A DNA stretch of 64,000 bases, from positions 1 to 64,000 of the forward strand of contig NZ_FWFU01000005.1 in the NCBI RefSeq assembly GCF_900172255.1, given 5' to 3'. The position numbers and the translations under genes are program-made. Positions 15,008-24,237 of the stretch are shown piece after piece (within the stretch, counting starts at the first letter, position 1; each line of letters opens with the position of its first letter). This DNA comes from Roseovarius halotolerans (GTDB lineage: Bacteria; Pseudomonadota; Alphaproteobacteria; Rhodobacterales; Rhodobacteraceae). Under the pieces are notes generated by a model. The model was given only the letters and a program-made list of their open reading frames with translations. It was not told the origin of the DNA and did not search any database.

Positions 15008-15041
15008 TTTGTGATCACATCATTTATCGCGTGATCACAAA
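15008..15041. promoter_or_regulatory. Paired GTGATCAC palindromes upstream of sdhC
   Basis: Two copies of GTGATCAC (15011-15018 and 15031-15038), centres 20 bp apart, with outer flanks TTTGTGATCACA and GTGATCACAAAACC. Two turns of helix between centres suggests two dimers binding side by side. The same arrangement occurs upstream of sucC. They lie about 145-175 bp before the sdhC start, in the only gap upstream of the operon. Confidence 0.65.
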
Positions 15042-15133
15042 ACCTTGGCCAGCGGCCGCCTTTTGAGAGCGATCATCCCCGCAAGAGAGACTCAGCCCCC
15101 TCCTCCCGCAAGGTCGGTCAGCAACGTGCATCC

Positions 15134-15145
15134 GTGATCACAAAA
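15134..15145. promoter_or_regulatory. Third GTGATCAC palindrome
   Basis: GTGATCACAAAA, the same core and right flank as the pair at 15008-15041, about 103 bp further from sdhC and just after the RND pump stop. It could be an auxiliary operator. Confidence 0.45.
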
Positions 15146-15151
15146 GCCCTT

Positions 15152-18100
15152 TCAGGTCTTGAACACACGGTAGATCGCAGGAATCACCAGCACTGTCAGC
15201 AAGGTGGACGATATCAGGCCGAAGAACAATGACAGTGCCAGCCCCTGAAAGATCGGATCGGCCAGGATCACCGCCGCCCCGATCATCGCCGCCAGCGCCG
15301 TCAGCAGGATCGGCCTGAACCGGATCGCCCCGGCCTCGATCAGGATCTCCTGCATGGTCTTGCCCTCGGGGTCGGTGTGGCGGATGAAATCCACCAGCAG
15401 GATCGAGTTGCGCACGATGATCCCCGCCAGCGCGATGAACCCGATCATCGACGGCGCCGAAAAGGGCGCGCCCCACAGCCAGTGACCCACCATGATGCCG
15501 ATAAAGGTCAGCGGCACCGGCATCAGGATCACCAGCGGCACCCGGAACGACCCGAACTGTGCCACCACCAGGATATATATGCCAAGGATCGCCACCCCGA
15601 AGGCCGCGCCCATGTCGCGGAAAGTGACGAAAGTGACCTCCCATTCGCCATCCCACAAAAGCGTCACGCCGCTTTCGTCCTCGGGCTGGCCATTCATGGC
15701 GATGCGGGGTTTCTGGCCCTCGGGCCAGTCCATCGCGTCGATCTTGTCGGCCACGGCCAGCATCCCGTAAAGCGGCGCCTCGAAATCCCCGGCCAGTTCA
15801 GCCGTCACCATCTCGAGGTTGCGCCCGTTGCGCCGGAAGATCGGGTATGAGGCCTCTTCGTCCTGCACCTGCACCACGTCGCCCAGTTCCACCACGCCGC
15901 GCGCGCCGGGCAGCACATTGGCCGGGATCGGTGTGGACAGGAAGCGCTGGTCGACCACCCGGTCGCCCTTGGCCCGTGCCACCGTCAGGGGGATCGGGTC
16001 GCGCCCCTCGCCGCGATGCGAATAGCCCACGACGGTCTGACCGTTGAGAATTTCCAGCGTGTCGAACACATCGCCTTCCTGCACGCCGAAGAACTCCAGG
16101 TCGTCGCTGGAAATCGTTACCCGCTGGCGACGCGGCTGTTCGCCGAAACTGTCATCGACATCGACGATGAAAGGCACCTCCTCGAAGGCGCCGCGCAACT
16201 TGCTGGCCACCTCGCGGCGGGTTTCGGCATCGGGGCCATAGATCTCGGCCAGCAGCGTCGCCAGAACCGGCGGGCCGGGCGGCGGCTCGACAGTCTTCAA
16301 GACCGTGCCCTCGGGCAGGTCCAGCCCCGTCAGCCGTTGGCGCAGGTCCAGCGCGATGTCGTGGCTGGTGCGCTCACGCGCGCCCTTGGGCGCCAGCATG
16401 ATCTGCACATCGCCCTGTTCGGGCATGGATCGCAGATAGTAGTGCCGCACGAGACCGTTGAAATTGAAGGGGGCAGCGGCACCGGCATGGGTCTGCGCCT
16501 CGATCACCTCGGGCAGGTCCATCGCCTTCTGCGCCACCTGCTGCATCACCGCGTCCGTCGCCTCGACCGATGCGCCCTCGGGCAGATCCACGACCACCGA
16601 CAGTTCCGATTTGTTGTCGAAGGGCAGCAGCTTGACCGTCACGTCCTTGGTATAAAGCAGCCCGAGCGAACCGAAGGACACCAACACCGTCACCGCCAGG
16701 AACAGACCGCTGCGCGCCTTGGTCGCTAGGATCGGCACCGCCACCCGGCGGTAGATCCGGCCCAGACGGCCCTCGCCCTCTTCGTGGTGATCACTGCCAC
16801 CCCGGCCCGCCACCTTCACCATCAGCCATGGCGTCACCATCACCGCCACGAAGAACGAGAAAATCATCGCCGCCGAGGCATTGGCCGGAATCGGGCTCAT
16901 ATACGGCCCCATGAGGCCGGACACGAACAGCATCGGCAAAAGCGCCGCGACCACGGTCAGCGTGGCGACGATGGTGGGGTTGCCCACCTCCGCCACCGCG
17001 TCGATCGCCGCCTGAATCCGGCTCTTGCCGCGATCCAGTTGCCAGTGCCGCGCGATATTCTCGATCACGACAATGGCGTCGTCGACCAATATGCCGATGG
17101 AAAAGATCAACGCGAACAGCGAGACGCGGTTGAGCGTGTATCCCATGATCCAGGCCGCGAACAGCGTCAGCAGGATCGTCATCGGGATGACCACCGCCAC
17201 CACGATGCTTTCGCGCCAGCCGATCGACAGCCAGACCAGCGCGATGATCGACACCGTGGCCAGCGCCAGGTGGAACAGCAGCTCGTTGGCCTTCTCATTG
17301 GCGGTTTCGCCATAATCCCGCGTCACCGACAGCGCCACGCTTTCGGGGATCAGCTCGCCCTCCAGCATGTGAACCCGGTGCAGGATCTCTTCGGCCACCA
17401 CCACGGCATTCGCGCCCGCCCGCTTGGCCAGCGCCAGCGTCACGGCAGGGGCGCGATGCAGGTCGCCCGCCGCGTCGCGGGTGACATTGGCGACGTAATG
17501 CTCGGACATATCGGGCACGAAGGCGATGTCGGCCACGTCCCCCACATAGACGGGCCGCCCGTCGCGCGTGGTCAGCAGCAGGCTCGCGATCTCCGCAGGG
17601 CCGGTCAGGGTCTCACCCGCGATCAGGTCGATCTGCGCGCCGCCATCTCGCACCTGCCCGGTGCGAAAGGCCCGGTTGGCACTTTGCACCTTGCCGGCAA
17701 GCTGTTGCAGGGTCACCCCATGCATCGCCAGCCTTTCGGGATCGGGCGCGATGCGGATCGCCTCCTGCGCCTCGCCTGTCAGATAGGTCAGGCCGACATC
17801 CTCGATCTTGGTCAGTTCACCGCGCAACGCCCGCGCGATGCGTGTGAGATCATAGGACGACACCTCGTGCCCCGGCTTGCCCGAAAGGGTCAGCGTCACG
17901 ATGGCAACATCGTTGATCCCGCGCCCGACGATCAACGGCTCGGGGATCCCCACCGGAATGCGGTCGAGGTTTGCGCGCACCTTTTCATGCACCCGCAGAA
18001 TCGCCGCATCCGCCGATGTCCCCGCCTCGAACCTCGCGGTCACCATCGCCCCGTCATCGCGTGTCTGGGAATAGACATGCTCGACATCGTCGATGGCCTG

Positions 18101-23135: not shown

Positions 23136-24098
23136 ATGGCCAGACCCAAGATTGCCCTCATCGGCGCAGGACAGATCGGTGGCACCCTTGCCCACCTTGC
23201 CGCGCTGAAGGAACTGGGCGATGTCGTCCTGTTCGATATCGCCGAAGGCACACCCGAAGGCAAATCGCTCGACATCGCTGAATCCGGCCCCTCCGAAGGG
23301 TTCGATGCCCGCCTGAAAGGCACCCAGGACTACGCCGACATCGCTGGCGCCGACGTGTGCATCGTCACCGCCGGCGTGCCCCGCAAGCCGGGCATGAGCC
23401 GCGACGACCTTCTGGGCATCAACCTCAAGGTCATGAAATCCGTGGGCGAAGGCATCCGCGACAACGCCCCGGACGCATTCGTGATCTGCATCACCAACCC
23501 GCTCGATGCGATGGTCTGGGCGCTGCGCGAATTCTCGGGCCTGCCCCATGAAAAAGTCTGCGGCATGGCCGGTGTGCTGGACAGCGCCCGCTTCCGCCAC
23601 TTCCTCAGCCTTGAATTCGACGTCTCGATGAAAGACGTCACCGCCTTCGTTCTGGGCGGTCATGGCGACACGATGGTGCCGCTGACCCGCTATTCGACGG
23701 TGGCCGGCGTGCCGCTGCCCGACCTCGTGCAGATGGGCTGGACCACGCAGGACAAACTGGACGCGATCGTGCAGCGCACCCGCGACGGCGGTGCCGAGAT
23801 CGTCGGCCTGCTCAAGACCGGCTCGGCCTTCTACGCGCCCGCCACGTCGGCGATCGAGATGGCCGAAGCCTATCTCAAGGACCAGAAGCGCGTGCTGCCC
23901 TGCGCGGCCTATGTCGATGGCGCCTTCGGGCTGAACGGCTTCTATGTCGGCGTGCCCACAGTGATCGGCGCAGGCGGCATCGAGCGCATTCTCGACATCA
24001 AGATGACCAAGGACGAACAGGCCATGTTCGACAAATCCGTCGATGCGGTCAAAGGCCTGGTCAAGGCCTGCAAGGAAATCGACAGCTCGCTGGCGTAA
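23136..24098 (+). CDS. mdh: Malate dehydrogenase
   Basis: A 320-residue NAD-dependent malate dehydrogenase of the LDH-like type found in alphaproteobacteria. NAD-binding [14 protein letters not shown] is at the N-terminus, substrate-loop arginine in [26 protein letters not shown], and the catalytic His in [19 protein letters not shown] lies before the ATG. It is followed by a clear terminator, so mdh is its own unit although suc genes follow on the same strand. Confidence 0.97.
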
Positions 24099-24124
24099 CA
24101 GCAGAGCAAGTCGGCAGCCTTTCG

Positions 24125-24150
24125 CGGCGCCCCTCCGGGGGCGCCGTTTT
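24125..24150 (+). terminator. Rho-independent terminator after mdh
   Basis: Nine-base-pair GC stem CGGCGCCCC/GGGGCGCCG with a TCCG loop, followed by TTTTC. It begins 27 nt after the mdh stop. Confidence 0.85.
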
Positions 24151-24200
24151 CATTCGCCGCATTGATTCTTTTCAAACATGCGGAATCCAAGATATTTTCT

Positions 24201-24237
24201 TTGTGATCACAGCAATAATTTGTGTGATCACAAAACC
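24201..24237. promoter_or_regulatory. Paired GTGATCAC palindromes upstream of sucC
   Basis: GTGATCAC at 24203-24210 and 24224-24231, centres 21 bp apart, with flanks TTTGTGATCACA and GTGATCACAAAACC, the same as upstream of sdhC. They lie 110-140 bp before the sucC start, between the mdh terminator and sucC, and so would act on the suc unit. Confidence 0.65.

Follow-up and report, generated by a model that had tools for sequence, protein, structure and literature searches.

In the window analysed here, which is the whole 64,000-nt stretch of Roseovarius halotolerans NZ_FWFU01000005.1, two matching pairs of the palindrome GTGATCAC lie upstream of sdhC and sucC, the first genes of two operons of the tricarboxylic acid (TCA) cycle. 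As a whole, these pairs are best explained, with a probability of roughly 0.88, as double operators of the GntR-family regulator AkgR, from which it would activate sdh and, by assumption, suc. On sequence grounds, the window sites are assigned to the AkgR regulon, here in another genus than Rhodobacter sphaeroides (R. sphaeroides), where that regulon is known.

The initial annotation had claimed two cores before each gene, and their coordinates and absence from shuffled sequence bear this out. Core centres fall at 15014.5 and 15034.5 upstream of sdhC (20 bp apart) and at 24206.5 and 24227.5 upstream of sucC (21 bp apart), with the cores lying 147-174 bp upstream of the sdhC start at 14864 on the minus strand and 110-138 bp upstream of the sucC ATG at 24341 (Table 1). 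The pattern GTGATCAC-N12..13-GTGATCAC matched two places in the window and none in 100 dinucleotide-preserving shuffles, confirming the observation of two matching palindrome pairs; GTGATCAC alone occurs seven times in the window, two of these copies (16787 and 18919) being inside efflux genes. With its flank, the element reads TTTGTGATCACA at both 15008-15019 and 24200-24211, CGTGATCACAAA at 15030-15041 on the sdhC side and TGTGATCACAAA at 24223-24234 on the sucC side. Shared left and right flanks had also been described; the outer TTT and AAA are real but, because sdhC is on the minus strand, the supposed left and right flanks prove to be opposite ends of a single composite inverted repeat.

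We searched the 3.7 Mb Roseovarius genome (labelled G000) for the same sequences. TTTGTGATCACR without mismatch was found at six places, three at sdhC, two at sucC and one at a gene for a GntR regulator of the FCD type, so that all six sites fall at three promoters; the sixth copy (C9:472354-472365) stands directly ahead of the regulator start codon. The bare 8-bp GTGATCAC occurred at 96 places genome-wide versus three for the reversed control, and a single core was therefore dropped as a marker. Since the core alone is this common, the signal is carried by the flanks and the pairing. TGTGATCACA was present at five places, three of them in the window, and the two copies outside it, which by eye lie in peptidase-like and hfq-like frames, are apparently coding and were set aside.

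The regulator gene on the other contig encodes a GntR/FadR-type protein of 215 residues whose closest solved structure by sequence is McbR (PDB 4p9f, E 1.3e-18). The protein is 78% identical to a GntR protein encoded beside sdhB in a related genome, G051, in which sucA-sucD-sucC, mdh, sdhCDAB and the GntR gene stand in a row, and the genes preceding the regulator in the two genomes look alike in translation by eye. Among the best 80 matches listed, the closest named relative of G051 is Cereibacter ovatus (95% identical). We take RSP_0981 of R. sphaeroides to be AkgR, with which its family and targets agree. PMC4344238 describes RSP_0981 as a GntR regulator predicted for sucCD, sdh and sucAB in R. 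sphaeroides, and the order of genes in G051 matches the RSP_0962-0968, RSP_0974-0976 and RSP_0981 tags given there. From this gene order against published locus tags, we infer that G051 is R. sphaeroides. On identity, preceding gene and gene order, the G000 regulator is the evident orthologue of RSP_0981. In PMC6365646, GTGATCAC is among the sites of AkgR, which is termed a transcriptional activator. AkgR and CceR had both been named as candidates by the initial annotation; the first fits, since GTGATCAC is a reported AkgR site and the orthologue gene itself carries a core, and the second has a different motif, as set out below.

In 26 of the 32 genomes examined, a core is found at most 100 bp ahead of the regulator match; the 32 are G000 and 31 genomes hand-picked among the matches listed, mostly from the upper part of that list, with 11 of the 31 loci chosen partly for their proximity to sdh or suc. 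Where the regulator match starts at the ATG, the core begins 16-21 bp ahead of it; in G000 it is a single core 10-17 bp ahead of the start codon.

The search of related genomes for pairs 20-21 bp apart that had been proposed was carried out in two samples. The family sample comprised 198 Rhodobacteraceae genomes, one per genus, and was searched for exact cores with 8-18 bp between them; at least one pair was found in 175 of the 198 genomes, and the reversed control was found in none of the 198. Among the places listed there are also pairs at other spacings, for example 18 bp (G044, two pairs) and 24 bp (G047, one pair). For the regulator, the best E-values leave a gap from 1e-44 to 3e-56; at a cut of E 1e-55, at which G033 (2.6e-56) and G122 (5.3e-60) score as positive, 172 genomes had both regulator and pair, 5 the regulator only, 3 the pair only and 18 neither (Fisher p 2.7e-18, ignoring kinship). 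The class sample comprised 385 alphaproteobacterial genomes, of which 5 belong to the family and 380 do not. With 12-13 bp between the cores, the pair was present in all 5 family genomes and in 2 of the 380 others, and those 5 genomes also have the regulator (E<=1e-50), which none of the 380 others yielded. These results indicated that operator and regulator occur together across genomes. The two hits outside the family are in G344, before a distant GntR gene, and in G399. The G344 pair (L174, G344:C189, 992-1020) is an exact one at 21 bp, and the GntR gene that it precedes shares 31% identity with the regulator; paired operators of this kind may therefore extend beyond AkgR.

Position was evaluated in 42 sucC and 87 sdhC upstream sequences hand-picked at rough steps from the SucC and SdhC matches listed, plus the window's own, with regulator-negative genomes added on purpose. 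An exact pair at 20-21 bp was present before sucC in 37 of 37 genomes not scored regulator-negative and in none of the 6 scored negative, and before sdhC in 67 of 80 and none of 8, respectively; with up to two mismatches allowed in the 16 core positions, the sdhC count rose to 76 of 80. The 80 include G096, in which no regulator was found (genome 77% complete), and G040, chosen for having the regulator and no exact pair. Relatives thus keep the pair before both operons. Among the 37 exact sucC pairs, 34 are spaced at 21 bp and 3 at 20 bp; for the 67 exact sdhC pairs the corresponding numbers are 58 and 9. Four other pairs of spacings gave no exact pair in the fetched sdhC and sucC upstreams, and with up to two mismatches they reached at most 3 of 80 (sdhC) and 1 of 37 (sucC), compared with 76 and 37, respectively, for 20-21 bp.

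Aligning 64 pairs with 21-bp spacing (34 sucC, 30 sdhC) on their cores gave the composite inverted repeat TTT-GTGATCAC-N12/13-GTGATCAC-AAA, with N13 throughout the aligned set. Each position of the outer TTT and AAA is conserved in 77-94% of the pairs, the interior being more variable. None of the six positions after AAA is more than 53% conserved, and the common AAAACC is for this reason largely coincidence. The third copy that had been listed near sdhC is present in the window, where it is a non-coding core 103 bp upstream of the sdhC pair and just beyond the stop of an efflux-pump gene, but it is no general feature of the relatives examined, of which only some carry a third core upstream of sdhC. 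As a general part of the element it was rejected: the third core of G113 and G036 falls within a reading frame whose product includes NVITG, and that of G070 shares bases with the stop codon of the frame before it. Upstream of sucC, some named relatives have natural multiple operators, with three cores in 21-bp steps in L201, L215 and L224 and, in the last two, a further core at a distance of 26 bp.

The sdhC promoter provides a second point of reference. A GTGAC box, the likely -35, was found in 62 of the 67 paired sdhC upstreams, and 55 of these boxes are 61.5-64.5 bp from the proximal core, the other seven being displaced by one or two helical turns. The box, after which a TAT or TAA element frequently comes, marks the likely promoter. 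A first set, searched with GTGAC[ATG], had the box in 32 of 35 paired upstreams, with 28 at 61.5-64.5 bp, one at 52.5 bp and three at 74.5-75.5 bp. We then predicted that displaced boxes would fall at 50.5-54.5 or 72.5-76.5 bp. In a second set of 40 more upstreams, searched with GTGAC[AT], 32 had an exact pair and 30 of these the box, with 27 in the common place, two at 74.5 bp and one at 84.5 bp; two of the three displaced boxes (both at 74.5) fitted the prediction, and the third fell outside both predicted ranges, though near two turns. All seven displaced boxes are no more than 2 bp from whole turns of 10.5 or 11 bp; with a 10-bp turn, one of them is 2.5 bp off. In simulations under a null of our own choosing, applied to genomes that are related, the concentration of phase had a p value of about 1e-4 to 1e-3, and the placing of all seven boxes within 2 bp one of 4e-4 to 2e-3. 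GTGAC occurrences in G183 (18.5), G141 (28.5) and G135 (90.5) were set aside in the count, as each of these genomes has another box, which was counted and is in the common place or one turn away. In the window, TGTGCA stands at the place of the relatives' GTGAC[AT] box moved by about one helical turn. The phasing, which concerns few displaced boxes in related genomes and a likely -35, would fit an activator that must face RNA polymerase and is suggestive only. The sucC promoter gave no such reference, its best-scoring hexamers being scattered among the upstreams. A perfect palindrome, CGGTTTAAACCG, is present at 24276-24287 between the pair and sucC, and its TTTAA part is moderately kept in relatives; first read as a LacI-type site, it may instead be the -35 region, or a second operator.

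From the computed sites, spacing, conservation, co-occurrence with the regulator and gene order, we propose a mechanism in which protein binding, cooperativity, the sign of regulation and an effector are predicted parts. A GTGATCAC core, extended to TTTGTGATCACAAA, is the proposed site of one AkgR dimer, and two dimers would stand 20-21 bp, or two helical turns, apart. With two turns of DNA between the core centres, both dimers would sit on one face of the helix. A single regulator acting as two dimers on one face had been proposed at the outset and is the best reading, with the occupation by two dimers suggested by the spacing. In most relatives the dimers would be about 63 bp upstream of the likely sdhC -35, a position from which contact with RNA polymerase (class I activation), and not obstruction of it, would most likely switch on sdhCDAB; activation of sucCD(AB) is assumed to work likewise. 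At the single core ahead of the regulator's own start codon, the protein would probably repress its own gene.

Several observations weigh against this interpretation. The regulator cut of E 1e-55 was chosen after the E-values were known. The pair was found without the regulator in G019, G096 and G114, and the regulator without the pair in G040, G122, G147, G155 and G166; the Fisher p value is inflated, because the 21 regulator-negative genomes may represent few clades. In the class sample the reversed control gave five matches, all in one genome outside the family (G271). No recognisable 20-21 bp pair was seen in 4 of the 80 sdhC upstreams, and the GTGAC box is missing in 5 of the 67 paired ones (G000, G113, G125, G115 and G176). 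The site before the regulator's own gene is present in only 21 of the 80 nearest relatives of the Cereibacter protein and is absent from the G051 upstream, so that feedback, if real, would be lineage-dependent.

Many GntR/FadR regulators are repressors. AkgR may accordingly be bound at the pairs and repress sdh and suc, with the dimers hindering or looping the promoter; the own-gene site resembles a repressor site, and in the window a loop could make use of the third core, 103 bp upstream. We consider repression unlikely, since the proximal core is 52.5-84.5 bp upstream of the likely sdhC -35 across the 62 boxes, too far to block polymerase, only some relatives have the third core, and AkgR is termed a transcriptional activator in PMC6365646. 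Rather less probable is that another GntR/FCD paralogue, alone or together with AkgR, binds the sites, GTGATCAC being common to relatives of about 30% identity. Three regulator-family matches at E<=1e-10 are present in G000 (the regulator included), GTGATCAC is also the proposed site of PS417_07240, a protein with 32% identity to AkgR (PMC6365646), and the exact pair in G344 precedes a gene 31% identical; the presence of the pair nevertheless follows one orthologue, whose own gene has a core in most of the genomes examined (26/32).

Assignment of the sites to CceR, a LacI-family regulator of central carbon metabolism, is more doubtful again. CceR (RSP_1663) is predicted for sdh and mdh in R. 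sphaeroides according to PMC4344238, and succinate dehydrogenase is named in its R. sphaeroides regulon in PMC11323563, but the pair tracks a GntR gene that is itself preceded by a core. CceR was rejected as the binder on its predicted motif, [AGT]GTT-N6-8-AAC[ACT] in PMC4344238; the paired sites read GTGATCAC instead. Chance, or a structural or replication element made of GATC-rich palindromes and bound by no regulator, has in its favour a bare core that is found 96 times per genome, but it is almost excluded by the lack of pairs in shuffles and in the reversed control of the family sample and by the lack of exact pairs at other spacings before sdhC and sucC.

Several known systems stand close to the proposed one. 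The AkgR regulon of R. sphaeroides (AkgR taken as RSP_0981) is alike in its GntR family, in its sucCD, sdh and sucAB targets and in its GTGATCAC core, and the regulator itself is a 78% identical orthologue with, by eye, the same preceding gene; the window's genome differs in that the regulator gene is on another contig and has a core before its start, and in that the sites are pairs 20-21 bp apart. PS417_07240, a GntR-like regulator of deoxyribonate catabolism in Pseudomonas simiae, has the same GTGATCAC upstream of its own gene, at -47 to -40 from the start codon, but differs in pathway and lineage, and the passage on it in PMC6365646 reports one palindrome and no pair. CceR is alike as a predicted sdh and mdh regulator and differs in its LacI family and motif (PMC4344238). 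The regulator and the motif are thus already in print, and the exact geometry of the pair seems less described. The fixed pair, the phasing and the taxonomic limits went unmentioned in the listed titles and abstract beginnings of open-licence papers, a set without the primary AkgR paper (Imam et al. 2015); as far as searched, the less described features are the 20-21 bp pair, the apparent phasing to the sdhC promoter and the single own-gene site.

The work refines a known system and brings no new kind of system or mechanism. It extends the R. sphaeroides regulon to most of the sampled Rhodobacteraceae genera, gives a precise operator geometry (two sites, 20-21 bp, fixed promoter phase, with natural spacing variants) and offers annotators of Rhodobacteraceae genomes a reliable marker of AkgR and of both promoters, sdhC and sucC. 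More tentatively, and at somewhat under even odds, the system may be a minimal, very stable TCA switch of most Rhodobacteraceae genera in which one GntR protein would control chiefly sdh, suc and often itself through helix-phased double operators, the small size of the regulon having been checked by motif in the window's genome only. With similar reserve, two dimers at two turns would act 5, 6, 7 or 8 turns from the promoter, with feedback on the regulator's own gene through its single site. On this reading, the paired operators would let succinate dehydrogenase and succinyl-CoA/2-oxoglutarate metabolism change together and steeply when regulator or effector varies only slightly.

Table 1. Coordinates of the paired sites, their target genes and the regulator gene.
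Feature	Position	Strand	Basis or remark
GTGATCAC core, putative promoter-proximal operator, sdhC	15011..15018		sequence
GTGATCAC core, putative promoter-distal operator, sdhC	15031..15038		sequence
Third GTGATCAC core, possible auxiliary site	15134..15141		sequence
GTGATCAC core, putative promoter-distal operator, sucC	24203..24210		sequence
GTGATCAC core, putative promoter-proximal operator, sucC	24224..24231		sequence
TGTGCA, possible -35 of sdhC	14956..14961	-	by eye; 53.5 bp from proximal core centre
TAAAAG, possible -10 of sdhC	14934..14939	-	by eye; 16-bp spacer
sdhC, first of sdhCDAB	14481..14864	-	TIGR02970, E 1.1e-35; ATG at 14864 from sequence
sdhD	14095-14466	-	TIGR02968
sdhA	12271-14076	-	FAD_binding_2 and Succ_DH_flav_C
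sdhB	11395-12231	-	Fer2_3 and Fer4 domains
sucC, first of sucCD(AB) cluster	24341..25534	+	NF001913, E 2.9e-178
sucD	25595..26479	+	NF004230, E 1.4e-140
GntR/FadR-type (FCD) regulator gene	G000:C9:472372-473016		215 residues; PF00392 and PF07729; another contig

Between the two operons, genes for a mesaconyl-CoA hydratase and an HpcH/HpaI-type lyase occupy 19436-22093, between sdh and mdh-suc, and of the 8 stretches compared from relatives (L166-L173), 7 have the hydratase gene close to sdh or suc. A resistance-nodulation-division (RND) efflux pair, consisting of a permease and an adaptor (15152-19328), stands between sdhC and the hydratase gene (19436-20467). Because the hydratase gene is directly before sdhC in G051, the pump may be an insertion.

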